From Chitinophaga niabensis (lineage in GTDB: Bacteria; Bacteroidota; Bacteroidia; Chitinophagales; Chitinophagaceae), in assembly GCF_039545795.1 (NCBI RefSeq), contig NZ_CP154260.1:1989001-2053000 (forward strand): a stretch of 64,000 bases of DNA, written 5' to 3'. This document shows positions 28,027-59,153 of the stretch, piece by piece. Both the position numbers and the translations under genes were made by a program. Position 1 is the first letter of the stretch. Each line of letters opens with the position of its first letter. The notes beneath the pieces were generated by a model that did no database searches, was not told where the DNA came from, and saw only the letters and a program-made list of their open reading frames with translations.

Positions 28027-28049
28027 CAGGAGCGGTTGCGACGCTCCTG
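28027..28049. promoter_or_regulatory. Leader hairpin between FecR and SusC
   Basis: A perfect 8-pair stem (CAGGAGCG with CGCTCCTG) closes a 7-base loop 72 bases upstream of the SusC start. It lacks a T-tail, so it may be a 5' UTR structure or a transcript boundary rather than a strong terminator. The 194-base gap around it should also hold the sigma-dependent SusC promoter. Confidence 0.4.
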
Positions 28050-28120
28050 CGGATTCTTTGGGCAGCCTAAAAAACGTCTAGATCAACGATTTCTTAATTC
28101 ACCCAAAACATTGCAAAGGT

Positions 28121-31498: not shown

Positions 31499-31522
31499 GG
31501 CATTCACAATTAATTTAAAAGT

Positions 31523-33100: not shown

Positions 33101-33111
33101 AATTTCCATTT

Positions 33112-33933: not shown

Positions 33934-34754
33934 TAGTTAAATTCTTTTGTCCAAGGTGGGGAAGTGAACATATACCATGGAGTGTTTTCCTGGAGAATGT
34001 AAAAGCTGCAGGTTATGCAGGCGTGGAATGGTTTCCCTATGGAGAAGCCACTAACCCTGTTACCGTACTCAACCTTTTAAAGCAATACGACCTGGAGTTT
34101 TCCATTGTAACCGCCGTGTTGCAAATGCCGGAAACTTTTAAAGAGTACCTGCATGTTTTAAAAGAGCAGCTCACTGCACTCAGCCGTTTGCAACCACTGT
34201 TCATCAGTACGCAAACAGGCCGGGAGTATTATTCGGAAGAACAGATCATTCAATGCCTGGAAGTTTGCGAAGAAGTAAGCGACCAGCTGGGCGTACCCAT
34301 ATATCAGGAAACCCACCGTAACAAATGGTCCTATGCCGCGCATGCAACAGGGCCCTTGTTGCGGAAGTTCCCGGCGCTTCCTTTAACGCTGGATGTTTCA
34401 CACTGGTTCTGCGTATCTGAAAGTTACCTGGAAGATCAGCAGGGCATAGTGGCAGAGGCTATCAAACATGCCCGTCATATTCATGCGCGGGTAGGCCATA
34501 CGGAAGGGCCGCAGGTATGGGATCCTGCATTGCCGGAATATGCAGCAGCTTTGGCTGCACACCTGGCCATCTGGGATGAATGGATAAGACAAAGGGAAAA
34601 GAACGGGGACAGCTATTGTACCATTACGCCTGAGTTCGGACCTCCGCCTTATATGGTGATGGGGAACAGAACAGTTCCTGCACAACAGGAGCAATGGCGC
34701 ATTAATTTATGGATGAAAACGTTTCTGGATAAAAGATACAACCGCACCACATGA
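33930..34754 (+). CDS. Sugar phosphate isomerase/epimerase-like TIM-barrel protein
   Basis: This 274-residue protein of the xylose-isomerase-like TIM-barrel superfamily has no signal peptide. The likely metal ligands are in the expected order: Glu in YQETHRN, Asp and His in LDVSHWF, His in HARVGH, and Glu in TPEFGP. The start overlaps the PhyH stop by four bases, and the stop overlaps the GH106 start by four bases. All three are therefore likely translationally coupled. Members isomerise or epimerise sugars, or cleave modified sugars; which applies here is unknown. Confidence 0.85.
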   Translation: MIVKFFCPRWGSEHIPWSVFLENVKAAGYAGVEWFPYGEATNPVTVLNLLKQYDLEFSIVTAVLQMPETFKEYLHVLKEQLTALSRLQPLFISTQTGREYYSEEQIIQCLEVCEEVSDQLGVPIYQETHRNKWSYAAHATGPLLRKFPALPLTLDVSHWFCVSESYLEDQQGIVAEAIKHARHIHARVGHTEGPQVWDPALPEYAAALAAHLAIWDEWIRQREKNGDSYCTITPEFGPPPYMVMGNRTVPAQQEQWRINLWMKTFLDKRYNRTT

Positions 34755-37603: not shown

Positions 37604-37608
37604 CAAAG

Positions 37609-39225: not shown

Positions 39226-39261
39226 TCCCCGAAGCGAAAGCTCCTTTTTTTATCTCTTTTT

Positions 39262-39277
39262 GCTTAATCGTTTAAGC
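39262..39277. promoter_or_regulatory. LacI-type operator upstream of GH116 gene
   Basis: GCTTAATCGTTTAAGC is a 16-base palindrome with one mismatched pair and a central CG, as in LacI-family operators. It matches the perfect sites at 41954 and 59049 in all but one base of the 14-base core. It lies 70 bases upstream of the GH116 start. Confidence 0.7.
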
Positions 39278-39347
39278 GTTATGAAAACTGAGGAAAGATA
39301 TTTCCTGCAGCAGTAGATCTATTTGCCAATTCGAACCAAATACCATC

Positions 39348-41876: not shown

Positions 41877-41953
41877 AGATAAAGACAACCTAACGGCCAA
41901 TGATGTAAAAGTACGTTCATCCCCATTTTCAGAGGCATACTATGTGATATTTG

Positions 41954-41967
41954 CTTAAACGTTTAAG
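41954..41967. promoter_or_regulatory. LacI-type operator upstream of SusC operon
   Basis: CTTAAACGTTTAAG is a perfect 14-base palindrome with central CG, identical to the site before the LacI-family gene at 59049. It lies 42 bases upstream of the SusC start. A possible -7 element (GATATTTG, 41946-41953) directly abuts it, so bound repressor would block the promoter. Confidence 0.8.
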
Positions 41968-42009
41968 TAAGTACCTAATCCTCCTATAACCAAAACTAAC
42001 AACACGTTT

Positions 42010-45000: not shown

Positions 45001-45063
45001 TACGGTACGGGGGGATATCCTTTGCAGCGCAGCATCAATTTCGGGGCACAGCTTTCGTTTTAA
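42010..45063 (+). CDS. SusC-family TonB-dependent transporter
   Basis: This is a 1017-residue SusC transporter. It has a signal peptide (ending about residue 31, SYAQ), a carboxypeptidase-regulatory-like domain at about 33-115 (GKVTSAADGKPLSEVTIVVQG), a plug with VVVVGFGKQKK and DASATAVYGVRGANGVILIV, and a barrel ending in the closing strand RSINFGAQLSF. There is no STN domain and no adjacent ECF/FecR pair, in contrast to the SusC at 28121. Control here is probably by the LacI-family protein through the palindrome at 41954. SusD follows after 20 bases. Confidence 0.96.
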   Translation: MKGSSHQRALKKKACCFFLFFFTITAVSYAQKVITGKVTSAADGKPLSEVTIVVQGTPVGTTTYPDGTYAIKVSGNEAMLVYTYVGYEPQAITVGNNSILNIQLKQQSSTLGDVVVVGFGKQKKMTVTGAISSVPVNNIQRIATPSLSNALAGSMPGIITRQSSGEPGYDGAAVFIRGFGTWANRAPLILVDGVERDINQINTQEIESFSILKDASATAVYGVRGANGVILIVTKRGSTGKPKVIFRTENASLQALRLPDYINGPEYAGLINEALANNGQPARYTEAELQKFKDGSDPYLYPNVDWTDAVLKRNTFQSINNLSVSGGNEIIKYYTNVGYTVLNGIYKQDPKNAYKTNAQMKRYNFRSNMDINVSKTISIELGIGGVIQKGNYPGTGAPAIFDALKITSPINYPKLNPDGSVAGASTSYLQNNPWGLVTQSGYTRQDRNTLQGTFGGKWDLSKLVTPGLSVRGLFAYDHYYSASTDRIKPYAIKQYLGKDANGNDRYSSPPIREEQPMTYVLHNGANRAYYTEAGINYNRTFGDHTLTGMALGNRREYIDLTAGSTLNNLPYRRQGLAGRITYNYKNRYLAEVNAGYNGSENFPEGKQYGFFPSASAGWIISNEKFWHIDAVSNLKIRGSYGQVGNDQIGARRFLFLTTINRQGQSYFFGDNQRFYQGFEEAQIGNDDVTWEVATKSNIGMDLELFKGIISLQVDAFKENREGILIQRGVIPRVTGYYPWTLPYANLGKAKNSGVDALLEVRHTTRKGFYYNFRGTFTYAKSICTQNDDPIPKYDYQSFVGQPIDQPMGLIALGFFKDQADIEKSPKQNFMDQVRPGDIKYQDYNNDGVVDDYDRVPIGYPRTPQMVYGAGASFGYKGFELSFFFTGVARTSLFVDGPSMYAFQMGLGTYNILREYYDNRWTPQNPNAKYPRASPLQNPNNNRTSTLFLQDASYIRLKSAEIAYNFVIKRGLEGIRLFINGYNLATWDKIKVIDPESNYGTGGYPLQRSINFGAQLSF

Positions 45064-45083: not shown

Positions 45084-46859
45084 ATGAACAAGTTTCTTGT
45101 TTTAGTCACCATATTGCTCTTTTCAGCATCATGCACCAAAGACTATCTTAAAAAAGCGCCGGATGAAGACCTGGACATAAAAAAGGTATTTTCCGAAAGG
45201 AAATACGCAGAGTCTTTCCTCTCTTCGGCCTACAACAATGTTCCCGTTATGCTGGGCGCGGCAGACTGGGATCAGCGTAATCCATTCACGGGCGCCAGTG
45301 ATGAAATGGAGATCACTTTCCTGGGGGCTTATTCCCATCTGTTGAACTCAGGCGCCTGGAGTGCGAATGACTACTTCCCGGATGTATGGGGTTTTATGTA
45401 TGAAGGCATCCGTAAAACAAATCTTTTCCTGGACAATGTGGCACAGGTGCCGATGGATGAAACCGAGCGGAACAGGTGGATAGGAGAAGCTACTTTCCTG
45501 CGGGCTTTCTTTCATTTTATGCTGGCACGTATCTATGGTGCCATTCCTATCGGTGATCATGCGTATACCCTCAGTGAAGATTATTCCAAGATCCGCCGGC
45601 AACCCATTGAAAAAGTGATTGAATTCATCACCAGGGAATGTGATAAAGCTGTGCCATTGCTGGAATGGAAAGTAGCCCCGGATAAACTGGGCCGTGTTAC
45701 CAAAGCGGCAGCGCTGGCATTGAAATCGCAGGCCTTATTGTATATGGCCAGTCCGCTTTGGAATGGTAACCCTGATTACACCGGCATCAAAGATAAAGAG
45801 GGGGTGCAGCTCTTTCCTGCTTTCGACAAAGAGCGCTGGAGAAGAGCGGCGGTTGCAGCAAAGGAATGCATAGATGGGGTAGAAGCAAATGGATACAGGT
45901 TATACCGTGCCGCGAATAACGATCCTGTGAGGAATTACCAGGAAGTGTTCATTGAACGGAATAACGCTGAGGTATTATTTGCCCGCAATGCAGGAGAACA
46001 TTCGCATTTTGAACGTTGCAGCAATCCTATCAGTTATGGCGGTTTCTCTATTTTCTGCCCTACGCAGGAATTAGTGGATGATTATGAAATGGCCAACGGG
46101 CAGCGGCCTATCAATGGTTATAATGCAGACGGCTCACCGGTGATCAATGCAGGTTCCGGTTATGTGGAGGCAGGATATGTTGCGGCAAAACATCCGCTGG
46201 ATTATTACCCTGCCGGTGTGAGCAATATGTACGTGGGCAGGGAGCCCCGCTTTTATGCCAGCATCAATTTCAACGGTTCCATCTGGAAAGGCCGGGGTAT
46301 ACAGTTCTGGTTTGAAGGATTGGATGGCAGGAAGCGGGCTGGTTCTGATTACTGCATTTCCGGTTACCTGATGAAGAAAATGGTGAACCCTACTTCAGAT
46401 ATCTTCCAGAACAGGTTTTCTTTGAATACCTTCATCTACTACAGGCTGGGAGCGGAATACCTGAACTATGCGGAAGCATTGAACGAGATGGATGGTGCTG
46501 TGCCGGATGTATATAAGTACGTGAACCTGATCAGGGAACGATCCGGTTTGCCTCCTTTACCAGCAGGTTTAAGTCAGGATGAAATGAGGGCCCGCATATG
46601 GCATGAGCGGAGGATAGAGCTGGCCTTTGAAACACATCGGTACTTTGATACACGGCGCTGGAAGATTGCAGCGGGTATTGACAGCAAAGAAATTCATGGG
46701 ATGAACATTGGTGCAGGCACCAGTTTGTCCGACAACAATTTTTATAAACGTACGGTGATAGAGAAACGGGTGTTCATTGCACCGAAGCACTATTTATGGC
46801 CCTTGCAACAAGAGGAGATCAATAAGAATCGTAACCTGGTACAAAATCCCGGATGGTGA
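45084..46859 (+). CDS. SusD/RagB-family lipoprotein
   Basis: This is a SusD partner of 591 residues, longer than the other SusD proteins in the window. The lipoprotein signal is MNKFLVLVTILLFSASC, with Cys at about residue 17. The core shows GEATFLRAFFHFMLARIYGA, and the C-terminal part RRIELAFETHRYFDTRRWK. The last codons overlap the next gene by seven bases, so translation of the DUF4091 protein is likely coupled to it. Confidence 0.95.
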   Translation: MNKFLVLVTILLFSASCTKDYLKKAPDEDLDIKKVFSERKYAESFLSSAYNNVPVMLGAADWDQRNPFTGASDEMEITFLGAYSHLLNSGAWSANDYFPDVWGFMYEGIRKTNLFLDNVAQVPMDETERNRWIGEATFLRAFFHFMLARIYGAIPIGDHAYTLSEDYSKIRRQPIEKVIEFITRECDKAVPLLEWKVAPDKLGRVTKAAALALKSQALLYMASPLWNGNPDYTGIKDKEGVQLFPAFDKERWRRAAVAAKECIDGVEANGYRLYRAANNDPVRNYQEVFIERNNAEVLFARNAGEHSHFERCSNPISYGGFSIFCPTQELVDDYEMANGQRPINGYNADGSPVINAGSGYVEAGYVAAKHPLDYYPAGVSNMYVGREPRFYASINFNGSIWKGRGIQFWFEGLDGRKRAGSDYCISGYLMKKMVNPTSDIFQNRFSLNTFIYYRLGAEYLNYAEALNEMDGAVPDVYKYVNLIRERSGLPPLPAGLSQDEMRARIWHERRIELAFETHRYFDTRRWKIAAGIDSKEIHGMNIGAGTSLSDNNFYKRTVIEKRVFIAPKHYLWPLQQEEINKNRNLVQNPGW

Positions 46860-48502
46860 AAAAAGTAATTATTTTATTGTTGCTGAGTGCTGGCTTTTTC
46901 ACAGCACAGGCACAAAGTATGAACGTATGGCTGGAAACTTCTTTGAAAAGGATCTTTCCGCAATCTCCTGCGGGTACCGATTCTGTATTGGAGTTATCCG
47001 CAGCCAGGGGCAGCCGCATTTCCTTTCAGGCAGCTTTTCACAGCGATCTGAAAGACCAGGTGCATATTGAATGCAGTATGGAGAATGCGGCGGAATTAAA
47101 ACCCCGGATACGTTATGTGGGGCTGGTGCCCATGCATCATTTTACAACGGACGTAAGGAAAGAAGAAATGGACGGAATCGGCTTCCTCCCGGGACTGGTG
47201 CCGGAACCATTATACCCGCTTACAAAGGTGGAAGCAAATCCTTATGCAAGCCGTTCTTTCTGGGTAACGCTGAACATTCCCGCTAACATTACACCCGGCA
47301 TGCACACTTACAATGTGAAGCTGAAGTGGAATAAAGGGGAGCGGGTATTAAAACTGAAAGTGAATGTGAGCAAACTGGTGTTGCAGCCCCGCCGTAATTT
47401 CCCTGTTACACATTGGTGGCGGGGAGAAGCTACGAGCATTTATTACAAAACTAAAATGTTCGATGAACAATGGTGGAAACACACGGAAGCACAAATGCGG
47501 AACCTGATGGAGCATGGAACGGATGTGGCTTTTGTGCAGAACTTCTTTGAGTTTAAAACCTTGTTTAAACAACCCTGCCAGATGTTGCTCGTTGATGAGC
47601 CAAGCCCGGGGAAGTATACATTCGACTGGTCTGTGATCAAACGGTTCACGGATATGTGTAAGCAAATGGGCTACCGGAAATTCGAATGGGCACATCTGTG
47701 GATGTACTGGGGGGTAACAACGGCCATGCGGGTGTATACGGTGAAAGATGGAAAGTATGTGTTACTGTGGGATGCGGACCTTCCGGCTTTCTCAGACAAG
47801 TACATCAGCTTCCTGAAACAATTCCTGCCCGCCTTTCACGCCTTCCTGCAAAAGGAAAATATACTGGAAGATTCTTATTTTCATTTATCGGATGAACCCT
47901 GGTCTGAACATGTGCCTAATTACAAACGTGCACGGCAGGTGCTGAAAGATCTGGCGCCCTGGATGAAAGTAATGGACGCCTTAAGCGATATCCGTTATGG
48001 AAAAGAACACCTGACAGATATACCGGTGCCCATTATCAGCTCGGCAGCGGCATACCTGAAAGAAAAGATCCCACACTGGGTGTATTTCTGTACCGGTCCA
48101 AGGGATAAATGGCTGAACCGTTTCTTTGATACACCGCTTCCGAAGATCCGGATGTCCGGCTGGTTGTTTTACCATCTGAAGGCAGAGGGCTTTTTGCATT
48201 GGGGGTATAATTACTGGCATAAACTGGATTCAGAGGAAGCATCAGACCCTTATACGAATGGTTCTGCACACGCTTATCCGGGTATACCGGATGGCGATCC
48301 CTTTGTGGTGTATCCGGGTCCTGAGGGGCCTTATGATTCCATCCGCTGGGAGGTGTTTGCAGAGTCGCTGCAGGACTATGCTATCCTGCAATCTGCGGGT
48401 ATTGATCCGGACGATAAGTTGTTCACTCCTTTACTTTCTTATGAAGATTTTCCTAAAACATCAGCATGGATAACAGCGGCATTAAAGCAGGTTTTATTTT
48501 AA
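46853..48502 (+). CDS. DUF4091 / GH123-like putative glycoside hydrolase
   Basis: This secreted protein of 549 residues (signal peptide to about residue 20) has an N-terminal beta-sandwich and a TIM-barrel-like part (WAHLWMYWG). The motif HLSDEPW near 344-350 has an adjacent Asp-Glu pair, as in GH123 N-acetyl-beta-galactosaminidases, which carry a DUF4091 domain. Because DUF4091 proteins occur with many substrates in Bacteroidota loci, the specificity is open. The C-terminal GWLFYHLKAEGFLHWGYNYW is typical of the group. The gene overlaps SusD upstream by 7 bases and the next gene downstream by 37 bases. Confidence 0.75.
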   Translation: MVKKVIILLLLSAGFFTAQAQSMNVWLETSLKRIFPQSPAGTDSVLELSAARGSRISFQAAFHSDLKDQVHIECSMENAAELKPRIRYVGLVPMHHFTTDVRKEEMDGIGFLPGLVPEPLYPLTKVEANPYASRSFWVTLNIPANITPGMHTYNVKLKWNKGERVLKLKVNVSKLVLQPRRNFPVTHWWRGEATSIYYKTKMFDEQWWKHTEAQMRNLMEHGTDVAFVQNFFEFKTLFKQPCQMLLVDEPSPGKYTFDWSVIKRFTDMCKQMGYRKFEWAHLWMYWGVTTAMRVYTVKDGKYVLLWDADLPAFSDKYISFLKQFLPAFHAFLQKENILEDSYFHLSDEPWSEHVPNYKRARQVLKDLAPWMKVMDALSDIRYGKEHLTDIPVPIISSAAAYLKEKIPHWVYFCTGPRDKWLNRFFDTPLPKIRMSGWLFYHLKAEGFLHWGYNYWHKLDSEEASDPYTNGSAHAYPGIPDGDPFVVYPGPEGPYDSIRWEVFAESLQDYAILQSAGIDPDDKLFTPLLSYEDFPKTSAWITAALKQVLF

Positions 48503-49422
48503 TACTCCTGTTTGCTTTTACGGCAGGCAGGGCGCAATGGATCAGGCGGGACAGTACTGTATGGGGTGTTCGCAATGGTATAGTGGTGGGCCTCTGGCCA
48601 GGTGCCATTGAAAGTCTGAAGGAAGGGGCTAACGGAGGCCCGCGGGGATTGTTACGTATCGGATATCACTTTGGTGGCGTAACCTATCATATCAATTACA
48701 TCGCCGTAGAACCGGTGGTGAATGGGAAGATAGAATTCAGCGAGATCTCACCTTCAGCATCGGATGGCAAATGGGGGAAGCAGATGTGGATAGGGGATAC
48801 TGTGATGACGGAAAATACATTGAACCTGTATGTTCACATGGAGAAATTCGCCAACGGCGCACATCCTTACCTCAGGTTAAGTATACATAAAGACAGGCCG
48901 GAGGAATTATGCATAGAAGTATTCCATCATCCCGGCAGCGCTCCTATGGAGCGTTGCGGGATCACGGCTACGATGGGGAATTATTCCCGCCTGCGGAAAT
49001 TGTATTTAAAAGATACGGTGATCAACTCCCGGGAGCTGTATGCCGGTTACGATGGCATTGATTTCATTGAGAAAGAGACGTATCCTGTAGATAAGATTGT
49101 TTTAGCAACACCGGATGAATCTTTTGCGCAACTGGCCGCATGGCCGCAGGAGCCTGCTTACCTGGCCCGCTGGAACTGGCGGTACCGGCCCTTTTATATG
49201 CTTACACAATATTGGCGGAAAGATACGGCAACGCCTTCTTTGCAAGTTAGAGTGAATGGCCGTGCTAAATACTGGAGCGGAGGAAACAGAGACCCGCGGC
49301 AGTATATTGCTATACCGGGCGGGCCTTCTTTTGAGAATTTTGAGTTGAGAGAGAAATATCATGCAGGGCAGAAAGCCTATTTCGGTTTAAGTCTTAAACC
49401 GGTGGCGGAATTACTTCGGTAA
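48466..49422 (+). CDS. Secreted protein of unknown function
   Basis: I do not recognise a family for this 318-residue protein. It has a signal peptide (IKAGFILILLFAFTAGRA). The mature part is beta-rich with many Trp, Tyr and Gly residues (WIRRDSTVWGVRNGIVVGLW, GPRGLLRIGYHFGG). This suggests a beta-sandwich carbohydrate-binding or glycoside-hydrolase-associated fold. The start lies 37 bases inside the DUF4091 gene, and the stop overlaps the convergent permease stop by 12 bases. Its place at the end of the SusC operon implies a role in glycan handling outside the cytoplasm. Confidence 0.7.
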   Translation: MDNSGIKAGFILILLFAFTAGRAQWIRRDSTVWGVRNGIVVGLWPGAIESLKEGANGGPRGLLRIGYHFGGVTYHINYIAVEPVVNGKIEFSEISPSASDGKWGKQMWIGDTVMTENTLNLYVHMEKFANGAHPYLRLSIHKDRPEELCIEVFHHPGSAPMERCGITATMGNYSRLRKLYLKDTVINSRELYAGYDGIDFIEKETYPVDKIVLATPDESFAQLAAWPQEPAYLARWNWRYRPFYMLTQYWRKDTATPSLQVRVNGRAKYWSGGNRDPRQYIAIPGGPSFENFELREKYHAGQKAYFGLSLKPVAELLR

Positions 49423-50673
49423 TGCATGCCGCCACGCATAATACAACACAACCGCAAAACAGATCATCGGCACAACATAGGCCAGCTGCACATTATAATA
49501 GTAAGCGATAGCTCCCAGCCCCAGGGGCACCAAAGCGCCTCCCACAATAGACATCACGAGGAAAGCAGAAGCGGATTTGGTTTCATTGCCCAGGTCCCTG
49601 ATAGCGAGTGAAAAGATGGTTGGGAACATGATAGACATGAAGAACTCTACCATCAGTAAGAAATACACACCGGTCTTTCCGCCCTGTAATACACAATACG
49701 CCAGTAATAACACACATGCCGCACTGTAAATGATCAGCAGGATCCGGGGTGCTATCTTTTGCATGAGGAAAGTGCCCACATAACGCCCGATCATAAAGCA
49801 GAGCAACAGCATGCCCAGGAAAGTGGTGGCTTCCAGTTCCGGCATACCTGCACTGAAACCTGCGTAACGGATAAAGAAGCTGGAGATACATACCTGTGCC
49901 CCTACATATGCAAACTGTGCTATCACGCCCCAGCGGAAATGTACATGCCTGAATACGCGCAGGTTGATGCTGAGTTTACCACCATGTTCTTCCTGTACCG
50001 GCGGAAAATGCACCAGCCTGAAAGTAAGTGCTACCAGTAATAGTACACCTGCAATAGCGAGATAGGGGACCTGTACAGACCTTGCTTCTGAAAGCAGGTA
50101 ACTGTTCAGTGCCTCTGGGTTCATGGCATTGAGTTGTTCCGTGGAGAACTCTTTGCCGGAGAGGATCACTTTGCTCAGGAAGAAGGCAGCTACAAAAGCT
50201 CCCAGCCCGTTAAAGGCCTGTGCAAAGTTGAGGCGTTGTACAGCAGTTTCCTTTGATCCCATAATGGTGATGTAAGGATTGGCGGCAGTTTCCAGGAAGG
50301 TCATACCTGCTGCTACCAAGAACAGTGCGAACAGGAAGAGGCCAAAGGAACGCAGTTCAGCTGCGGGGAAGAATAAAATGGCCCCGGTGGCAGCAATGAG
50401 CAGGCCTGTGATGATGCCTGTTTTGTAACTCCATTTACGCATCACCCATGCCGCTGGTAATGCAAAAAAGAAATAGCTCACCCAATAGGCGGAATCAATG
50501 AAGGCGGATTGAAAGTCGTTCAGCTGGCAGGCTTTGCGGAGATGCGGGATCAGCACGGGTATCAGGTTACCGGTCAGTGCCCATAAAAAGAACAGGCTGA
50601 TAACGAGTATGAACGTCAGTTTAACAGTGTTGCTGTGCGTGGAGGGCTGCAACGTTTCAACGGTGGAATTCAT
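49411..50673 (-). CDS. FucP-like MFS sugar permease
   Basis: This is a 420-residue major-facilitator sugar/H+ symporter with 12 predicted membrane segments, close to E. coli FucP, which carries L-fucose and also D-arabinose. Shared stretches include FFLWAL near 33, SYKTGIITGLL, FLETAANP, RLNFAQAFN and AQFAYVGAQ. The Glu of FLETAANP matches the important FucP Glu135. The position of FucP Asp46 (LND) is replaced by Pro in GNLIPVLIP. It is the last gene of the - operon, separated by 100 bases from the gene upstream, and would bring the released monosaccharide into the cytoplasm. Confidence 0.9.
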   Translation of the reverse strand: MNSTVETLQPSTHSNTVKLTFILVISLFFLWALTGNLIPVLIPHLRKACQLNDFQSAFIDSAYWVSYFFFALPAAWVMRKWSYKTGIITGLLIAATGAILFFPAAELRSFGLFLFALFLVAAGMTFLETAANPYITIMGSKETAVQRLNFAQAFNGLGAFVAAFFLSKVILSGKEFSTEQLNAMNPEALNSYLLSEARSVQVPYLAIAGVLLLVALTFRLVHFPPVQEEHGGKLSINLRVFRHVHFRWGVIAQFAYVGAQVCISSFFIRYAGFSAGMPELEATTFLGMLLLCFMIGRYVGTFLMQKIAPRILLIIYSAACVLLLAYCVLQGGKTGVYFLLMVEFFMSIMFPTIFSLAIRDLGNETKSASAFLVMSIVGGALVPLGLGAIAYYYNVQLAYVVPMICFAVVLYYAWRHALPK

Positions 50674-50773
50674 ATAGGGCGGATTTAATGCAGTGTTGGA
50701 ACCTGGTTGATCATTGTAGTCAATGATGCGTTTTGTATTGATTAGCGTGTTTGAAGGTCATTGGCCAACCTGA
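50674..50773. promoter_or_regulatory. Gap between FAH-family and permease genes with hairpin and repeats
   Basis: A 7-pair perfect stem with a TAGT loop lies at 50710-50727 (ATCATTG with CAATGAT). The 10-base repeat AATGCAGTGT occurs at 50687-50696 and, just inside the upstream gene's stop codon, at 50776-50785. The gap may hold a secondary promoter or an mRNA-processing site that sets permease expression. Confidence 0.3.
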
Positions 50774-51631
50774 TCAATGCAGTGTCTGTACGTCATTGAT
50801 CAATGTGCCGATGTGGTCTATGCTGATCTCTACACGGTCATTATCCTGCAGTGTGAAACTGTTATCCGGTACCAGGCAGGTGCCTGTCATAAGATAACAA
50901 CCGTCAGGAAATGCACATCCTTTGAAGAGAAAATCTACCAACTCCTGGTGGCCGCGTTTCATCTGGCTGATGGGAACACTATCACTATACTTCATGTCTT
51001 CCTTCCGGAAGATGGACATTTTTATGAGCGTATCCGGCGGGATAGGTGTATCTGTTACAATCAGACAGGGGCCAAGACCGGCGCATTTCTCATAAACTTT
51101 TGCCTGCGGGAGGTACAGGGGGTTTTCTCCTTCAATACTGCGGGAGCTCATGTCGTTGCCAACGGTATATCCTTCAATGGTACCATGGCTGCTTACAAAG
51201 AGCGTAAGCTCCGGTTCCGGTACATCCCAGGAAGAATCTTCCCGGATGAACACCACTTGTTTGTGGCCGGATACCCTGTGCGGCGTGGCTTTGAAAAAGA
51301 GTTCCGGCCTTTCTGCCACATATACTTTATCATAAAAGGTAGCACCGCCGGAAACCTCAGATTCTTCCATGCGAGCGGTACGGCTGCGGAAATACGTAAC
51401 ACCGGCAGCCCATACTTCCTGTGTGGCAATGGGCGCCTGCAGCTCATTTTCAATGATGGTTTCTGCGGTGGCTTTATCTATGCGCGTTTGGGCAGGAAGT
51501 TCTGACAGGATGTTTTTGAATAACTCTTTCCTGTTCACGAAACTATTCCAGTCCGCCTTGATGGAATAATACTGTTCATCGTAGAAGGCCAGCAATGTGG
51601 CGGCGGTTTTATAGAGACGAATGATCTGCAT
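50774..51631 (-). CDS. FAH-superfamily protein, 2-keto-3-deoxypentonate (D-arabinonate/D-xylonate) dehydratase-like
   Basis: This fumarylacetoacetate-hydrolase-fold enzyme has 285 residues from the ATG at 51631; the longer frame adds 12 residues overlapping the upstream gene. The segments [34 protein letters not shown] (metal-binding Glu residues), [19 protein letters not shown] and AKVYEKC match the subgroup that includes 2-keto-3-deoxy-D-arabinonate dehydratase of Sulfolobus. It would dehydrate 2-keto-3-deoxypentonate to alpha-ketoglutarate semialdehyde. The aldehyde dehydrogenase that would use this product is in the same operon. A hydrolase acting on 2,4-diketo-3-deoxy-L-fuconate is the main alternative. 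Confidence 0.85.
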
Positions 51632-51638
51632 GGTGTAA

Positions 51639-52865
51639 TTATTTTTTGCTGAGGAATTGTTGTACATCTTCCAGCGGCAGGTTCCACAAGCGGGCAGCGA
51701 GGGCTTTCAGGGCTATGCGGTCTGCAGCTTCAAAGTGCATGGTCACCTGTTTGTAACTGAGTGTTTCTCCGGGTTGCAGGGCGCGTGCATCGGAAGAAGA
51801 TTCTACTTCATAGAAAGGGCCCATTTGAGAACCATCTGCCAGCGGGCCATCGTTATAGCAATTCACGGCATCTCCTTTGAATGGTTCTTTCTGCAGTTCC
51901 CATTTGGAGTTCACATAACGGCCCTGTGGCACTACTTCATAGAAAAGCACGGTAAGTGTGTTGTTCTCCAGGTCTATACTGCCTGCACCTGATTTGGCAA
52001 CGAGGGGAGAGAGGCCCAGTTTGCCACGGGCTTTACCGTCTGCGCGGAAGAGCAGCAGGCTGTCTTTCACCTGCAGGTTCTGCGGAGGTATTTTGCCGAA
52101 GTAATCATCCGTGATATGTGCACGGGCATCTGCTACTCCTTTGAAAGGCGCTACCACCACCGTCTGATCAGAGGGTATAAACATACCCAGCAGCCAGATG
52201 CTTAGCAGACCGTTCTTTTCCTGCCATGCACTATCTCCGGTATTGGTCAGTACATTCTCTGTTTCATAAGCTACGCTTTTAACACCTTCGGGCAATGCAT
52301 ATTGCAGTCGTGCAGCGATGGCGTTATTATCCAGCAGGCGGATGGTTCTGCTGATATCGAGTTTAAAGGTAGTGCCGGAATAGTTTTGAATACTTCCTGC
52401 ATATTGATACGTGATGGCGTTGGCGGACTGGGATTTCACGTTGTAGTGCGCAGTATCTATCAGGCCGGGTGTTTGCCAGTTATCGAATTCAAAGGATTTA
52501 CCGCCGGGGAAGAACAGGGAATACTGTCCGCCTTCGGGTCCTAACCAGAAGCGTTCTTCACCACCGAATGCATTGATGTGCGGCGAGAGTTTGCCGGAGG
52601 ATACCAGGTTGTAATTGATCCAGCCAAAACTTTTGCCTGCGTTGCCGCTGGCGGTGCTGGTCATTACGCGGGCCTGATAATCGCCTGTTACCACCACACG
52701 GCTGCTGTCGCTGCTGCTTTGCAGTACTACTACATTCTGCAGGTGTTTTTGCAGGAAAGCTACGTCTTCCCCGAAAGTGCCGGGTTTCTTTTCTTCTTTC
52801 GTTTCGGCCTGGTTGCAGCTGATCATGCCTGTCAGCAATGCGGCTGCGATAATGTTTAATTTCAT
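51639..52865 (-). CDS. DUF6786-like lipoprotein
   Basis: This 408-residue lipoprotein ([17 protein letters not shown], Cys at about residue 17) is beta-rich, with segments such as [20 protein letters not shown] that I associate with the DUF6786 group. The fold looks like the aldose-epimerase/beta-sandwich type, but no catalytic His pair is evident. It lies between the dehydratase and FAH-family genes with gaps of 17 and 7 bases, so it is part of the sugar-acid operon even though it is extracytoplasmic. It could interconvert anomers or bind the sugar. The family name is from recollection. Confidence 0.65.
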
Positions 52866-52882
52866 AACGGTGTTTTGAAAAC

Positions 52883-54490
52883 TTATAAAGAAACCCCTCT
52901 TTTCCAGGGAATGAAATCATCCTGTTCCAGCACCTGTGCCCTTGCGGTGTATAAACCACTGGCGGTATCGATCACTAAATTTAAGATCCTGTCTGCTGCT
53001 TCATTGATAGATTCTTCTCCATTGATAATAGTTCCTGTGTCTATATCAATGATGTCCTCCATTTTGTTGGCAAGTTTGCTGTTGGTGGAGAGCTTGAGCA
53101 CCGGCGTAACAGGGTTGCCGGTAGGAGTGCCAAGCCCTGTTGTAAAGAGCACGATGTTAGCGCCTGCACCTACTTCTGCCGTAGTGGATTCCACATCGCT
53201 GCCGGGTGTACAGAGCAATGCAAGGCCCGGGCGTTGTACCCTGCCCGGATAGTCAATTACATCTGTAACGGGAGAGGAGCCTCCTTTTTTTGCTGCGCCG
53301 GCAGATTTGATGGCATCTGTAATGAGTCCATCGCGGATGTTGCCGGCAGAAGGATTGGAATCGAAGCCTGATCCCACAGCTTCCGCTCTGCTGGCATACT
53401 CACGCATGAGTTGTGTGTAACGTGCAGCGAGTTCTGTGTTGATGCAGCGGTCGCTCAGTTCCTGTTCCACACCGCAGAGTTCGGGGAATTCAGATAAGAT
53501 CACGGAGCCGCCTAATGCTACCAGTATGTCCGAAACCCTTCCCACGGCCGGGTTGGCAGAGATGCCGGAGAAGCCGTCTGAACCGCCGCATTCCATGCCA
53601 ATGATCAGTTTATTGAGCGGTGCGGGCTGGCGTTGTTGTTTGTTGGCTTTGGCAAGTCCTTCAAAAGTGAGTTGCAATGCCTGTTCCATCAATACTTTTT
53701 CAGAGCCTATCTTTTGCTGTTCCAGGCAGATCACTGTTCTGTCGAAACCCGGTACTCTTTTTTCTATCTCTTCCTTCAGCATATCTATCTGCGCATTCTG
53801 GCAGCCGAGGCTGAGCACGGTAGCGCCTGCTACGTTGGGATGCGTGATGTATCCGGCTAACAGGCCGCAAAGCGTGCGGGCATCATCTTTGGTGCCGCCG
53901 CAGCCTAAAGTATGGGAGAGGAGTTTAATGCCGTCTATATTTTCAAAGGTCCTGCGTTTGGGTGGTTTTATAACTATCTCAGGATCTTCTTTACCCTGCA
54001 GCAACTGCTGCAGCATTTCTTCATAAGGATTGTGTTTGCGGTAACCCAGTTCTTTCACCAGCACTTTATGCAACATCTGTACATTGCGGTTTTCACAGAA
54101 CACCAGGGGAATGATCACCCAGTAATTGCCAGTGCCCACACGTCCGTCTGTGCGATGGTAACCCATGAAATGACGGTCTTTCCATTCGGAGACATCCGGT
54201 ACATCCCAATTGATCTTACGTTCTTCTTTCACGGCAAAATTGCCGGAAGCGTGGCGGATATTCTTTGTGGTGATCAGTTCACCTTTGGGGAGATCTTCAT
54301 TGGCTAAACCTACCAGCACGCCATACATGATAATAGGGCTGTCTTTCGCAATGAATTCCCCGGTGAGTTTATGTTTGGCAGCCACATTACGGATAGCGGT
54401 GATACCTTCCACCGTTGTGCCGGCCGGGATATCCTGCAGGGCTACCCACACATTATCATCCTGATGGATCTTTAATATTTGTAAGCGCAT
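52883..54490 (-). CDS. UxaA-family sugar-acid dehydratase
   Basis: This 535-residue protein belongs to the altronate/galactarate dehydratase family (UxaA/GarD). It has an N-terminal SAF-like domain (about residues 1-90) and the large UxaA core, with HTLGCGGTKDDARTLCGLLAGY, LSLGCQNAQID and GMECGGSDGFSGISANPAVG. The cysteines in these motifs fit the metal site of the family. In UxaA the product is 2-keto-3-deoxygluconate. Next to the FAH-family and alpha-ketoglutarate-semialdehyde dehydrogenase genes, a five-carbon acid such as D-arabinonate is a more likely substrate. D-altronate, D-arabinonate and L-fuconate share the same configuration at C2-C4. Confidence 0.88.
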   Translation of the reverse strand: MRLQILKIHQDDNVWVALQDIPAGTTVEGITAIRNVAAKHKLTGEFIAKDSPIIMYGVLVGLANEDLPKGELITTKNIRHASGNFAVKEERKINWDVPDVSEWKDRHFMGYHRTDGRVGTGNYWVIIPLVFCENRNVQMLHKVLVKELGYRKHNPYEEMLQQLLQGKEDPEIVIKPPKRRTFENIDGIKLLSHTLGCGGTKDDARTLCGLLAGYITHPNVAGATVLSLGCQNAQIDMLKEEIEKRVPGFDRTVICLEQQKIGSEKVLMEQALQLTFEGLAKANKQQRQPAPLNKLIIGMECGGSDGFSGISANPAVGRVSDILVALGGSVILSEFPELCGVEQELSDRCINTELAARYTQLMREYASRAEAVGSGFDSNPSAGNIRDGLITDAIKSAGAAKKGGSSPVTDVIDYPGRVQRPGLALLCTPGSDVESTTAEVGAGANIVLFTTGLGTPTGNPVTPVLKLSTNSKLANKMEDIIDIDTGTIINGEESINEAADRILNLVIDTASGLYTARAQVLEQDDFIPWKRGVSL

Positions 54491-54498
54491 GTTATGTT

Positions 54499-55269
54499 CT
54501 ATTTTAAAGCCCTGTCCAGGTGCACATATCCGCCATCTACATGGATCAGCTGGCCGGTGGTGTGGCTGGACTTTTCAGACAGCAGGAAGGTAACCATCTG
54601 TGCAATCTCTTCCGGCGTGGTCATTCTTTTTTCCAATGGTATACCTTCCACAATGTTGGCGAGTTTGGTTTCTTTATCGGCAAAAGTATTGATCCAGCTT
54701 TCGTACAAAGGTGTCCATGATTCCGATACTACTACGGCATTTACACGGATGCTGTAGGGGAGTAGTTCTACTGCCCATTCACGGGTGAGTGCATTCCTGC
54801 CTCCGTTGGCAGCAGCATAACCGGAGGTATTACCCTGGCCTGTTTCGGCGGTTTTGGAAGTGATGTTCACAATAGGACCTTTGCTCTTTTTAAGGTAAGG
54901 CAGGGCATGATGTGCAATGAGATAGTAATGCACTACGTTGCGGTGAAGGGATTGCATAAAGCCTTCGTAAGAACCGGATTCCAACCCAACGCCATCATTG
55001 ATACCGGCATTGTTCACTAACCCGTCTATCCTTCCATATTGTTGTATGATAGCTTCTACCGCTGCTTTACAGGTATCGGGGTCAGTGAGTTCAGCAGTTA
55101 TCTGCCAGCCTTTTCCGATTTGGGCCAGGTGTTGCAGGTTATCTGATTCATTCCTTCCGATGATCACAGGAAAGGCACCTTCTCCGGCGAGTACGGCTGA
55201 AATAGCTGCACCGATCCCTTTGGCGCCACCTGTTACTATGATGATCTTATCTTTTAATCCCAGGTCCAT
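54499..55269 (-). CDS. SDR oxidoreductase, L-fucose/D-arabinose 1-dehydrogenase-like
   Basis: This 256-residue SDR starts at the ATG at 55269 (MDLGLKDKIIIVTGGAKGIG); the longer frame runs into the aldehyde dehydrogenase gene. It has NNAGIND, ITSKTAETGQ with the catalytic Ser, and GYAAANGGRNALTREWA. The usual YxxxK motif is Y151-A-A-A-N155, so the catalytic Lys is Asn. The C-terminal SESWTPLYESW and GQLIHVDGGYVHLDRAL resemble bacterial L-fucose dehydrogenases, which also oxidise D-arabinose. It would make the sugar lactone at the start of the pathway. A 2-keto-3-deoxyfuconate 4-dehydrogenase is the alternative. Confidence 0.85.
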   Translation of the reverse strand: MDLGLKDKIIIVTGGAKGIGAAISAVLAGEGAFPVIIGRNESDNLQHLAQIGKGWQITAELTDPDTCKAAVEAIIQQYGRIDGLVNNAGINDGVGLESGSYEGFMQSLHRNVVHYYLIAHHALPYLKKSKGPIVNITSKTAETGQGNTSGYAAANGGRNALTREWAVELLPYSIRVNAVVVSESWTPLYESWINTFADKETKLANIVEGIPLEKRMTTPEEIAQMVTFLLSEKSSHTTGQLIHVDGGYVHLDRALK

Positions 55270-55276
55270 AGATAAA

Positions 55277-56818
55277 TTATGTTTTAGAAAAGTTTCCGTT
55301 AAATAAGCGCCATATGCCGAGTGGATTTTCGTCCTGCAGCTCAGGCGGTAACAGGTAAGCGGGGAAGTCCTGGTAACAGACAGGTCTGCAGAAACGATAG
55401 ATGGCAGTACTGCCAACGGAGGTGCCTGCTGCGGGTGTGGTAGCTGGCCATGGGCCGCCATGTACCATGGCGTGGTTAACGGCTACGCCTGTAGGAAAAC
55501 CATTGATGACGATCCTGCCTGCTTTTTCTCTAAGGATATTCACCAGTTCCGTGTATTCGCGGAGGTCTTCTTCCGTACCATGAATAGTGGCGGTGAGTTG
55601 CCCTTCCAGTGCATGGGCGAGCCGGAACAGTTCTTCTTTGCTGTTGGTGCTGATATGTAAAGAAGAGGGGCCGAATACTTCATGGCAGAGGGATGGGTTA
55701 TCCAGCACCTGTGTGGCATTTACCTGTAAGAGGGCGGGAGATGCCTGGTGTGCGGTGGCAGACGCTGCTCCTAATAATTGGGCGCCTGCCTGCCGCAGGC
55801 TGTTGATACCGCTGTTGTAAGCCTCCAGGATTCCGGGAGTTAACATGCATCCGGTGGGCATTGCTGCGATTCCTTTTTGCAGGGTGCTGAGGAATAGTTC
55901 ATCTTCCGCGGGTGTAATGAATACGCCCGGGTTGGTACAGAACTGGCCCACACCCATGGTAAGGGATTGTAAAAACTGTGCAGCTAATGTTTCTCCTTTT
56001 TCTTTCAATGCGCGGGGCAGAAAGAAAACCGGGTTTACGCTGCCCATTTCTGCATAAACAGGAATGGGCACTGCTCTACGGGTGGCTGTATCATAGAGGG
56101 CCTTGCCGCCCCTGAATGAGCCTGTAAAAGCGATGGCAGACAACTGCGGATGAACTGCCAGTTGCTGGCCGGTATTAATGGAGGCACCATGTACTAACGA
56201 AAATACACCTTCCGGCATGCCGGTATCATTGGCGGCGGTGCGGATCACATTGGCAACAAGATGAGAAGTGTGCGGATGCGCAGGATGTGCTTTGAACACT
56301 ACCGTACATCCTGCAGCCAGTGCGGCGGCGGTATCACCACCGGCAACAGAAAATGCCAAGGGGAAATTGCTTGCCCCGAAAATGCCAATTACGCCAAGCG
56401 GTATCTGCATCTGCCGTACATCCGGCGTTGCTTTATCGATGCGTGCGTTCACCCAGGAGCCTTCCGAGATCATGGTGGCGAATAAACGCAGCTGCCCGGC
56501 AGTACGGTCTCTTTCTCCCTGTAAGCGTGCCAGTGGCAGGCCGCTTTCTGCCGAGGCGGTATTGATCAATTCATCTCCTAAGGCTGCTATACCTGTTGCG
56601 ATGGCTTCTAAAAAAGCGGCACGTTGTTGTGCAGGCACTTTTTTGTATATGGTAAAAGCCTGCGCGGCCAGTTTCACTGCCTGGTCAATTTCTCCGGGTG
56701 TTGCTTCCCTGAATTCCTGCGGTAACCATTGCTGCTGCTGTGGTGCGAAAGCACGAAAAGTACTATCGCCCTCACTGCTGAAATGATTGCCGATGATCTG
56801 TGATCCTGTTTGGTTCAT
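55277..56818 (-). CDS. Aldehyde dehydrogenase, alpha-ketoglutarate-semialdehyde (2,5-dioxovalerate) dehydrogenase type
   Basis: This 513-residue NAD(P)+-dependent aldehyde dehydrogenase resembles type III alpha-ketoglutarate-semialdehyde dehydrogenases, including the characteristic C-terminus VCYQDFPAYLLPPELQDENP. The catalytic Cys is in GVGQFCTNPG (about residue 293) and the general-base Glu in YAEMGSVNP (about 258). The cofactor loop is visible as FTGSFRGGKAL. It would oxidise 2,5-dioxopentanoate to alpha-ketoglutarate, the last step of Weimberg-type pentose oxidation. It lies between the GH172 gene (8-base gap) and the SDR (7-base gap). Confidence 0.9.
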   Translation of the reverse strand: MNQTGSQIIGNHFSSEGDSTFRAFAPQQQQWLPQEFREATPGEIDQAVKLAAQAFTIYKKVPAQQRAAFLEAIATGIAALGDELINTASAESGLPLARLQGERDRTAGQLRLFATMISEGSWVNARIDKATPDVRQMQIPLGVIGIFGASNFPLAFSVAGGDTAAALAAGCTVVFKAHPAHPHTSHLVANVIRTAANDTGMPEGVFSLVHGASINTGQQLAVHPQLSAIAFTGSFRGGKALYDTATRRAVPIPVYAEMGSVNPVFFLPRALKEKGETLAAQFLQSLTMGVGQFCTNPGVFITPAEDELFLSTLQKGIAAMPTGCMLTPGILEAYNSGINSLRQAGAQLLGAASATAHQASPALLQVNATQVLDNPSLCHEVFGPSSLHISTNSKEELFRLAHALEGQLTATIHGTEEDLREYTELVNILREKAGRIVINGFPTGVAVNHAMVHGGPWPATTPAAGTSVGSTAIYRFCRPVCYQDFPAYLLPPELQDENPLGIWRLFNGNFSKT

Positions 56819-56826
56819 CTGTGTTG

Positions 56827-57963
56827 TTAGTTTACTTCGAGTTCGTCTTTTGCCTGTAATTTGGGGAAAGGAGCATGCGGTTCACGCTGATACCAGAACA
56901 CTACGCTGCTGATATCCGATTGCTGCGGAAGGTAACGTCCGCCGCTGCGCCAGCCAAGGTCCTGGATAGTGATCTTCAGCTCTTTGTCAAAACGCACCGG
57001 GTCCATGATATGCCAGCGGTACAGGCCAAAACGTTGCTGCGATTTATATAATCCATCCGGCCGTATCACCTGGTGCAGGCCGGCGTAGGGTGTGGAAAAT
57101 TCCTGGTACTTACCCTTGTTGTCAAAGTTGTAGGAACCGCAGAAATAATCTTCTGTACCCGTGCCGCAGATAGTCGGGAATTTGTTATCGCCGTCCATGA
57201 AGAATTTAATTTCACCTTCACCCCACCAGCCGTTATTGTTCACACCCCATGCCATGTAAGTTCCTACGTAATGGCCTTTTCCTTTGATACCATCTATCAT
57301 AGTGAACTCAGCACCTTTTACAGGATTGTTGCGGCGGAACTGCGCATGAAAATAAGCAGCGTCTTCCGGCACCGGTGTGAGTGTGTAATCTACCTGGTAG
57401 TAGAGCGTCATACGTTCTGTATTGATATTCTCCATGGTGATCTTACACTTTTTACGGAAGGGCATAGACCAGTAGCAGTTAAATGCGCTGCCGGGATTTA
57501 CGGTAACGGCGAGGGAGTTCATCTGTGCATATTCACCCCAGCCCATGCCGAAGAAATCACCTACAGGTACTTCCACGGAAGGAGTGGTTTCATCGTCCCA
57601 GTAAAAGCGGAGGATGGAATAGCGCCAGTTACCGGTAGGTGTCATCCAGATGTGCTGGATAGCGCCTGAGCCATTGATCTCTGCGAGGGTAACTGTTTTA
57701 CCCGGTTCAATATGAATGTATGGATTCACTTTCCAACCCTGCCCCAGGTCTCTTGCGGCATTTTTTGCATTGCCCTGATCCAGTGTGGCCATACCGCCTT
57801 TGCCGGGTTCGCCGGTGAAGTTCTCCGGACTGATAGAACGCGTTTTTGCGTCTGAAAGGCGGGAGAGATTACCCAGGTTCATGTCCAGCCCGTTAAAGGT
57901 TTGTTGGGAGAAGGCCGTCCAGCTAAAGCAGACCGCCATGGAGAGAAGGAACAGTTTTTTCAT
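56827..57963 (-). CDS. GH172 (DUF2961) glycoside hydrolase
   Basis: This secreted 378-residue protein (signal peptide to about residue 19, AFSQ) has the DUF2961 domain, now glycoside hydrolase family GH172. Known members are alpha-D-fructofuranosidases/difructose-anhydride enzymes and exo-alpha-D-arabinofuranosidases. Conserved segments are MTPTGNWRYSILRFYWDDE, VGDFFGMGWGEY, GEGEIKFFMDGD near 250 and GTGTEDYFCGSYNF near 268. The last two hold the Glu residues expected to be catalytic. It is the first gene of the - operon, behind an operator-like palindrome. Release of D-arabinofuranose fits the downstream pathway better than fructose, because no fructokinase gene is present. Confidence 0.88.
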   Translation of the reverse strand: MKKLFLLSMAVCFSWTAFSQQTFNGLDMNLGNLSRLSDAKTRSISPENFTGEPGKGGMATLDQGNAKNAARDLGQGWKVNPYIHIEPGKTVTLAEINGSGAIQHIWMTPTGNWRYSILRFYWDDETTPSVEVPVGDFFGMGWGEYAQMNSLAVTVNPGSAFNCYWSMPFRKKCKITMENINTERMTLYYQVDYTLTPVPEDAAYFHAQFRRNNPVKGAEFTMIDGIKGKGHYVGTYMAWGVNNNGWWGEGEIKFFMDGDNKFPTICGTGTEDYFCGSYNFDNKGKYQEFSTPYAGLHQVIRPDGLYKSQQRFGLYRWHIMDPVRFDKELKITIQDLGWRSGGRYLPQQSDISSVVFWYQREPHAPFPKLQAKDELEVN

Positions 57964-57986
57964 ACAGTGTTTTAATTTACGTGTTG

Positions 57987-58004
57987 TGCTTTAACGATTA
58001 AGCA
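57987..58004. promoter_or_regulatory. LacI-type operator upstream of GH172 operon
   Basis: TGCTTTAACGATTAAGCA is an imperfect palindrome with central CG. Its right half (CGATTAAGCA) is the exact complement of the left half of the site at 39261. It lies 24 bases upstream of the GH172 start, in the 63-base gap after the LacI-family gene. Confidence 0.65.
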
Positions 58005-58026
58005 ATAATAGTTTATTTAGTTATGC

Positions 58027-59034
58027 TTACTTTTTTCCGGAGGATCTCCTGATCACGAGTTCTGTATCAATGCAGATCAGTTCTGCGGGTTTCTCTGCGT
58101 CTTTTATCTGATCGAGCAATACGCGCACGGCTGTTTTACCCATTTCCAGGATGGGTTGCCTTACGTAGGTAACGGGGGAGTAGAAGAGGTCGAATGCTTC
58201 ACTTTCATCGAAGCTTACTACGGCCAGTTCCTCCGGTACACGGATGCCCAGTTCATTAATGTATTTCAGTCCTTCAATGGCCAGGCTGTTGGTGGCAAAA
58301 AAGAGGGCGTCTGCGGGTTTGCGCGCCTTGAGCAATTGATCGATAGCCAGTTTGATATCTTCTTTCAGGTGGGAATACCGGGCCAGTTTCATCTGGCTTT
58401 TCTTTTCACCCAGGGCTTCCGTATATCCGCGTTTGCGTTCGCTGATATGATGAAGGGCTGTTTTATAGGCAATCATACCTATCTGCTGACGGCCCATTTT
58501 AATGAGATGGGTAACAGCATTATAGGCAGATTCGTAGTTATTGATGCTGATGTGGCTGGCGGGGATGTCCGGGAAATACCGGTCTATCAGCACAAAAGGC
58601 ACGTTCTGGTTCTGCAGGTTTTTGATCTGCTGTTCGGAACCTTCCGTGGGAATGAGGATCAGCCCATCCACCTGCCGGTTCAGGAGTACATTGATCAGGT
58701 CCCTTGATTTGTCCACATTCTCATCAGAGCTGCCGAAGATCACGGTATAGTTATTCCGTTTGGCTTCGTCTTCGATGGTGCGGGCAATGTTGGCGAAGAA
58801 GGGGTTGGAGATATCTGCTACGATCAGCCCAATGGTGTCCGACCGGCCGCTTTTAAGGCTGCGGGCAATGTGGTTGGGCTGATAGTTCAGCTTGCGGGCT
58901 ATTTTGCGGATCTTTTTGGCCATTTCCTGGCCTACTCTTGCTTTCTCCTCTTTATTGGTAAGTACATAAGATACCAGCGCGGTAGATACACCGGCTTCCT
59001 GGGCAATATCTTTTAAGGAGACCTTCTTCTTCAT
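58027..59034 (-). CDS. LacI-family transcriptional regulator
   Basis: This 335-residue LacI/GalR-type regulator has an N-terminal helix-turn-helix at about residues 4-25 (VSLKDIAQEAGVSTALVSYV) and a hinge with NYQPNHIARSLKSGRS. The periplasmic-binding-protein-like sensor domain follows (IGLIVADISNPFFANIART; SFDESEAFDLFYSPVTYVRQP). It lies upstream of the GH172 operon on the same strand. A perfect CTTAAACGTTTAAG palindrome 15 bases before its start implies autoregulation. The same motif marks the GH116, SusC and GH172 units, so it is the likely regulator of the whole 39-58 kb locus. The inducer is unknown. Confidence 0.94.
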   Translation of the reverse strand: MKKKVSLKDIAQEAGVSTALVSYVLTNKEEKARVGQEMAKKIRKIARKLNYQPNHIARSLKSGRSDTIGLIVADISNPFFANIARTIEDEAKRNNYTVIFGSSDENVDKSRDLINVLLNRQVDGLILIPTEGSEQQIKNLQNQNVPFVLIDRYFPDIPASHISINNYESAYNAVTHLIKMGRQQIGMIAYKTALHHISERKRGYTEALGEKKSQMKLARYSHLKEDIKLAIDQLLKARKPADALFFATNSLAIEGLKYINELGIRVPEELAVVSFDESEAFDLFYSPVTYVRQPILEMGKTAVRVLLDQIKDAEKPAELICIDTELVIRRSSGKK

Positions 59035-59048
59035 GCACTAAAAATATG

Positions 59049-59062
59049 CTTAAACGTTTAAG
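59049..59062. promoter_or_regulatory. LacI-type operator upstream of the LacI-family gene
   Basis: CTTAAACGTTTAAG is a perfect palindrome with central CG, identical to the site at 41954. It lies 15 bases before the regulator start codon and 92 bases before the divergent DUF2652-like gene, so it could affect both. Confidence 0.8.
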
Positions 59063-59153
59063 TAAACAAATTTCGGGCGAAAAAATAATTAATTATATTG
59101 CAGCGGTGACCTAATTATTGCTCTCCGGATTTTATAACTCAAAAAGAAAAGCG

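Follow-up and report, generated by a model that had tools for sequence, protein, structure and literature searches.

Organization of the locus

The window analysed here is a stretch of 64,000 nucleotides from Chitinophaga niabensis, positions 1989001-2053000 of its 7.2 Mb single-contig genome. Its minus strand carries an operon of eight genes, which encode, in this order, a LacI-family regulator, a glycoside hydrolase of family GH172, an aldehyde dehydrogenase (ALDH), a short-chain dehydrogenase/reductase (SDR), a UxaA-type dehydratase, a DUF6786 lipoprotein, a FAH-fold protein and a FucP-type permease. Convergent with this operon are plus strand genes for a GH116 enzyme, a SusC/SusD pair and two further proteins. 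Gene content, operators, catalytic residues and the failure to find FucI in the genome are direct observations on the DNA; our reading of them, to which we assign a probability of about 0.85, is that the locus is a regulon for the utilization of D-arabinofuranosides (D-arabinan-type glycans) with oxidative catabolism of D-arabinose. The features are as follows (positions are those of the window).

39261..39278, no strand: LacI-type operator before the GH116 gene, one of the five genome sites with at most 2 mismatches
39348..41876, plus: GH116, predicted exo-beta-D-arabinofuranosidase with a twin-arginine-like N-terminus (closest solved relative, residues)
41952..41969, no strand: LacI-type operator before the SusC gene (palindrome search)
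42010..45063, plus: SusC-like TonB-dependent outer-membrane transporter (Plug and CarbopepD_reg_2 domains, SusD next to it)
45084..46859, plus: SusD-like glycan-binding lipoprotein (domain match)
46853..48502, plus: GH123/DUF4091-type protein, predicted beta-N-acetylgalactosaminidase (match to 8p4l)
48466..49422, plus: secreted protein, predicted beta-supersandwich (structure model)
49411..50673, minus: FucP-type permease, predicted D-arabinose:H+ symporter (family model)
50774..51631, minus: KdaD-type FAH protein (catalytic positions aligned with KdaD)
51639..52865, minus: DUF6786 lipoprotein, predicted galactose-mutarotase fold (domain match, fold)
52883..54490, minus: UxaA/GarD-type dehydratase, predicted D-arabinonate dehydratase (family domains, Cys alignment)
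54499..55269, minus: SDR of the L-fucose dehydrogenase family, predicted D-arabinose 1-dehydrogenase (NCBIfam model)
55277..56818, minus: aldehyde dehydrogenase, predicted alpha-ketoglutarate-semialdehyde dehydrogenase (role by context)
56827..57963, minus: GH172, predicted exo-alpha-D-arabinofuranosidase, signal peptide seen by eye (domain, closest structure, residue)
57987..58004, no strand: LacI-type operator between lacI and the GH172 gene (palindrome search)
58027..59034, minus: LacI-family regulator (family models)
59047..59064, no strand: LacI-type operator before lacI (palindrome search)

Throughout the genes from GH172 to FAH the intergenic gaps measure 7 to 17 bases; they are 63 bases between lacI and GH172 and 100 bases between FAH and FucP. 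The starts of the SDR and FAH genes probably lie inside longer, mechanically called open reading frames (ORFs). An earlier sequence-only reading had described this tight operon and its families just as they are found here. However, the interval it gave, 49411..59034, is too short, as it omits the shared operators, the first of them at 39261, as well as GH116, SusC/SusD and the GH123-type protein.

These operators are LacI-type palindromes near TGCTTAAACGTTTAAGCA and lie upstream of the GH116, SusC, GH172 and lacI genes. The window contains four sites with at most 3 mismatches, where 0.06 would be expected, and in the whole genome there are five sites with at most 2 mismatches, namely these four and one at 4.58 Mb. 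As the consensus was derived from the window itself, related loci are the fair test, albeit nearly all from one genus. We fetched 80 FAH-containing loci for comparison; 21 have a GH172 gene with at least 60% identity and 59, many of them short contigs, do not. With up to 3 mismatches allowed, all 21 loci have an operator before lacI, 19 of 21 before GH172, 10 of 11 before GH116 and 8 of 8 before SusC; the last two denominators are smaller because elsewhere the gene start, the upstream stretch or (for SusC) a 60%-identity ortholog lies outside the locus. The background, in loci of more than 10 kb without the operon, is 3 sites per 893 kb. The shared operators thus appear to join the convergent plus strand genes with the minus strand operon in one regulon, which would start at the operator at 39261.

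Predicted enzymes acting on the glycan

The GH172 protein has a DUF2961 domain (327.9 bits, cut-off 27). Its nearest solved relative is the Microbacterium exo-alpha-D-arabinofuranosidase 8ic8 with 434.6 bits, compared to 153.1 bits for the difructose enzyme 7v1v. Its Asn279 aligns with Asn253 of ExoMA1, the residue named as blocking fructofuranose (PMC10509167; this and the other PMC articles are cited from partial texts), where the fructofuranosidase has Gly299. For GH116 the nearest solved relative is the exo-beta-D-arabinofuranosidase 8ic6 (370.8 bits), the best glucosidase reaching 42.2 bits. Residues E407, D533, H422 and R459 correspond to E431, D557, H446 and R483 of ExoMA2, given a chain offset of four residues deduced from four motifs. 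Hence the nucleophile, the acid/base and both arabinofuranose-specific residues are retained, whereas TxGH116 carries Asp and His at the latter two positions. The assignment to subfamily 4 of PMC10509167 was made by these four residues. The GH116 N-terminus (39348-39440) contains the twin-arginine-like motif NRRNFLK, and the exo-enzyme may fold before export; the Microbacterium GH116 exo-enzyme has no signal sequence.

SusC/SusD together with GH172, the combination that marks a D-arabinan polysaccharide utilization locus (PUL), is present in the window. The GH123-type protein matches the beta-N-acetylgalactosaminidase 8p4l with 892.6 bits. Its place in a D-arabinose regulon hints at a D-arabinofuranose glycan bearing N-acetylgalactosamine (GalNAc). 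In related loci a GH123-type gene is found near the operon in just 2 of 21 cases (L008 and L011).

Predicted catabolic enzymes and permease

The FAH-fold protein has KdaD (2q18) as its nearest solved relative and keeps all five of its catalytic positions: E122, E151, E153, D172 and K190 (numbering of the 297-aa ORF) align with KdaD E114, E143, E145, 164 and K182. The KdaD residues were taken from PMC9795676, where position 164 is printed as Glu; it is Asp in both aligned sequences. The sequence-only reading had named a diketo-acid hydrolase as the finding that would overturn its assignment. The catalytic pair of such a hydrolase is His83/Glu86 in C785_RS20550 (PMC6336799), and the corresponding motif, NYxxHxxE, is not present in the window FAH but occurs in the FAH of the separate L-fucose cluster of this genome. 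This check therefore comes out in favour of the sequence-only reading.

The UxaA-type protein has the domains of its family and Cys at four putative conserved positions in 11 of 11 aligned sequences, the correspondence being indirect as the Herbaspirillum sequence lies outside the alignment. With the galactarate dehydratase model it scores 271, far under the cut-off of 730.9. We predict that it is a D-arabinonate dehydratase. For a published UxaA/GarD enzyme D-arabinonate is a strong substrate, and D-altronate and L-fuconate are weak ones, L-fuconate being dehydrated at 5.6% of D-arabinonate (PMC6336799). That a UxaA-type enzyme replaces the archaeal enolase-type dehydratase had been proposed before from the sequence; this stands as a reading but not as a novelty, as it is published for the bacterial Route II (PMC6336799).

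The SDR passes the NCBIfam L-fucose dehydrogenase model NF052481 (405.3, cut-off 300) and is predicted to be a D-arabinose 1-dehydrogenase; L-fucose dehydrogenases (FucDH) are reported to accept both D-arabinose and L-fucose (PMC6336799). FucP passes TIGR00885 (356.8, cut-off 280.4), stays under the cut-off of a second FucP model (333.8, cut-off 427) and also lies above a glucose/galactose-transporter subfamily model (228.1 vs 202.6). The nearest solved chains of the ALDH are the aldehyde dehydrogenases 3v4c and 1eyy, and its role as alpha-ketoglutarate-semialdehyde dehydrogenase (KGSADH) is assigned by context. The predicted galactose-mutarotase fold of the DUF6786 lipoprotein agrees with that of aldose 1-epimerases; the protein may act in the periplasm on released D-arabinose in the manner of a mutarotase.

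A search of the genome for FucI (PF07881) gave no match, while its control was positive in 3 of 14 cases; isomerases of other families were not searched for.

Proposed pathway

Substrates, repression, export and direction of flux are predictions throughout this scheme. The glycan, whole or in fragments, would be bound and taken up by SusC/SusD. Once exported, GH172 and GH116 would remove alpha- and beta-linked D-arabinofuranose from the chain ends, and the GH123-type enzyme may take off beta-GalNAc. Released D-arabinose would enter the cytoplasm through FucP and be oxidized by the FucDH-type SDR to the lactone, which could open spontaneously or with the help of a lactonase from another locus. 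The UxaA/GarD-type enzyme would convert D-arabinonate to 2-keto-3-deoxy-D-arabinonate, the FAH-fold enzyme would convert this to alpha-ketoglutarate semialdehyde, and the ALDH would yield alpha-ketoglutarate, which enters the tricarboxylic acid cycle. LacI is predicted to repress GH116, the SusC operon, its own gene and the GH172 operon through the palindrome. A complete route from D-arabinofuranose to alpha-ketoglutarate had been suggested before, and the closeness of GH172 to 8ic8 with Asn279 and the five KdaD positions of FAH support it; of the tests made here it fails one, that of the ALDH with the KGSADH model.

Conservation in related loci

GH172 and FAH occur together, as the sequence-only reading had suggested looking for, in 21 of the 80 loci (20 labelled Chitinophaga, one Pseudobacter). 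The array recurs in these loci and therefore is not a product of chance. LacI, ALDH and DUF6786 are present in all 21, the SDR in 20, UxaA in 17 and FucP in 12; GH116 (at least 70% identity) is within reach in 18. Eight of the 59 loci that lack GH172 have an ALDH (48-56% identity) directly after FAH, which supports consecutive steps for the two enzymes; in a ninth (L055) it lies 6 kb from FAH on the opposite strand. This locus (L055:837-9000) has GH116 (55%), FAH, DUF6786, UxaA and ALDH, with no GH172 in its 11.4 kb contig, and is possibly a further member of the system outside Chitinophaga. Of 12 neighbourhoods of close GH172 relatives, four have a KdaD-type FAH and three have FucI-family genes. 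We predict that closely similar GH172 enzymes are coupled to either catabolic module, varying by relative.

Several observations weigh against our interpretation. The ALDH scores 117.8 with the NCBIfam KGSADH equivalog NF042993, far under its cut-off of 770; thus of the earlier assignment to the alpha-ketoglutarate-semialdehyde type the operon context stands and the model match does not. The operon contains no lactonase gene, a gap that had been noticed before and stays; a relative of L-fucono-1,5-lactonase is encoded elsewhere in the genome. Four of the 21 related loci have no UxaA and nine have no FucP, and as 20 of the 21 belong to one genus their conservation is not independent evidence. 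DUF6786 also lies near FAH in 17 loci without GH172 from other Bacteroidota (e.g. L025:8560-10837), so that the link between FAH and D-arabinan does not hold in all cases. Neither D-arabinose module was recognized in 3 of the 12 GH172-relative neighbourhoods, and in one locus (L121) GH172 adjoins both a set of isomerase and kinase genes and an oxidative set of the L-fucose type. An enolase-type gene elsewhere (L131) weakly resembles the archaeal arabinonate dehydratase (232 vs 650). Finally, a profile search of the genome did not find GH183 (PF13810); the same search detected the family in 15 of 296 Bacteroidota, 13 of them above the cut-off, and 14 control genomes were silent.

Other sugar clusters and alternative explanations

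A separate L-fucose cluster at 4.44 Mb has its own FucP, a FucDH (405.7 bits), a relative of L-fucono-1,5-lactonase (311.4 bits, under the cut-off of 400), a hydrolase-type FAH with the His-Glu motif (357.3, under the cut-off of 500) and a second SDR. The lactonase relative shares 56% identity with a lactonase-like gene adjoining GH172 in another locus (L124), and a lactonase for the D-arabinose route may act in trans. No dehydratase was found among the six genes from FucP to the SDR or in the seven flanking ORFs, one of which (427 aa) has no family. A cluster for uronates at 4.87 Mb contains genes for UxaB, UxaC and a KDPG-type aldolase, along with the second UxaA paralogue (56.7%) of the genome. 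The window gene set is thus a third, separate system, whose UxaA might be common to L-fucose catabolism.

The family names FucDH and FucP could mean that the operon serves chiefly L-fucose (or L-galactose). The FucDH model and one FucP model are indeed passed, and FucDH-type enzymes accept both sugars (PMC6336799). Yet the genome already has the cluster at 4.44 Mb, GH172 and GH116 look by their residues like D-arabinofuranose enzymes, and on chemical grounds 2-keto-3-deoxy-L-fuconate dehydrated in the manner of KdaD would end up as a ketone, leaving no aldehyde for the ALDH, so that we consider this very improbable. Even harder to uphold is the idea that GH172 acts on difructose dianhydride or alpha-fructofuranosides while the operon degrades another sugar: the family includes such an enzyme, 7v1v, but the bit scores and the Asn in place of Gly299 speak against it, and a GH116 with exo-beta-D-arabinofuranosidase residues lies under the same operator. 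A Weimberg operon for D-xylose would share 2-keto-3-deoxy-D-pentonate with the D-arabinose route, and its final two steps are identical (PMC9795676). However, the substrates of D-arabinose dehydrogenase and of the published UxaA-type enzyme have the opposite C2-C3 configuration (PMC6336799, PMC9795676) and the operon has no IlvD-type xylonate dehydratase, which makes this explanation just as implausible.

It is possible, although we think it unlikely, that the operon is for D-arabinose but shares its UxaA-type dehydratase with the L-fucose cluster. The lack of a recognizable dehydratase in and around that cluster and the weak L-fuconate activity of the published enzyme fit this view. So do the enolase-superfamily genes: of six matches in the genome the best three were scanned, and one is a galactonate dehydratase above its cut-off while two pass none. 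On the other hand, the UxaA paralogue of the uronate cluster exists, the other five enolase-type genes, two without assignment and three unscanned, could serve L-fucose, IlvD-type dehydratases were not searched for, and the clusters of Paraburkholderia mimosarum are each induced by their own sugar only (PMC6336799).

Relation to known systems

Burkholderiales are already known to use Route II with a D-arabinonate dehydratase of the UxaA type (PMC6336799). In P. mimosarum and Herbaspirillum huttiense this route has, as predicted here, a UxaA/GarD D-arabinonate dehydratase, an FAH-superfamily dehydratase of 2-keto-3-deoxypentonate leading to alpha-ketoglutarate and a D-arabinose dehydrogenase with dual D-arabinose/L-fucose specificity. 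Their dehydrogenase, however, is an aldo/keto reductase instead of an SDR, and the partial text of PMC6336799 mentions no glycosidase, SusC/SusD or FucP, whereas here a PUL and LacI are present. The archaeal pathway of Sulfolobus has the KdaD-type FAH with the same five catalytic positions, but an enolase-type dehydratase and a medium-chain dehydrogenase (PMC6336799) in place of the UxaA-type enzyme and the SDR.

On the glycan side, the D-arabinan PUL of Microbacterium arabinogalactanolyticum provides the closest solved relatives, the GH172 exo-alpha- and GH116 exo-beta-D-arabinofuranosidases. It differs in that its exo-enzymes lack a signal sequence and in having GH183 endo-enzymes and, as putative components, an ABC importer, an isomerase and a kinase (PMC10509167). 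PUL42 of Dysgonomonas gadei is likewise a Bacteroidota PUL with GH172 (PMC10115798), for which a putative GH116 was noted (PMC10509167), but it has GH183 (PMC10115798). For both of these D-arabinan systems an isomerase-type D-arabinose catabolism was proposed, with a kinase in one (PMC10509167, PMC10115798). The titles and abstract beginnings retrieved from the open-licence PMC literature gave no D-arabinan system joined to oxidative D-arabinose catabolism and none pairing D-arabinonate with D-arabinan; within the literature searched, the coupling of a D-arabinan-type PUL to an oxidative D-arabinose pathway is new.

We predict that a Bacteroidota lineage uses D-arabinofuranosides without a phosphorylation step. 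Polymers of D-arabinofuranose are typical of mycobacterial and corynebacterial cell walls. The cluster offers a defined operator to work with, candidate enzymes for each of the two D-arabinofuranose anomers and a secreted protein without family.

This secreted protein of 318 aa (48466-49422) matched no Pfam or NCBIfam family; it has 686 homologues and a confident supersandwich model (pLDDT, the predicted local distance difference test, 87.1). It could be the founder of an unrecognized family of glycoside hydrolases and take the place of GH183 in opening a D-arabinan that bears GalNAc, by which the cluster would be complete, GH183-free and oxidative; we regard this as a speculative and rather improbable idea. 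Wherever an operon locus has FucP (12 of 21), the gene of this secreted protein adjoins it.

In the L-fucose cluster (L128:5845-13356) a 250-aa lipoprotein without known family is encoded between FAH and the SDR, and a MauG/MbnP pair adjoins. Directly upstream of the regulon, at 26769-39078, lies a second SusC/SusD locus with FecR, PhyH, a xylose-isomerase-like TIM barrel, GH106 and GH28, whose apparent substrate differs from that of the D-arabinose regulon.

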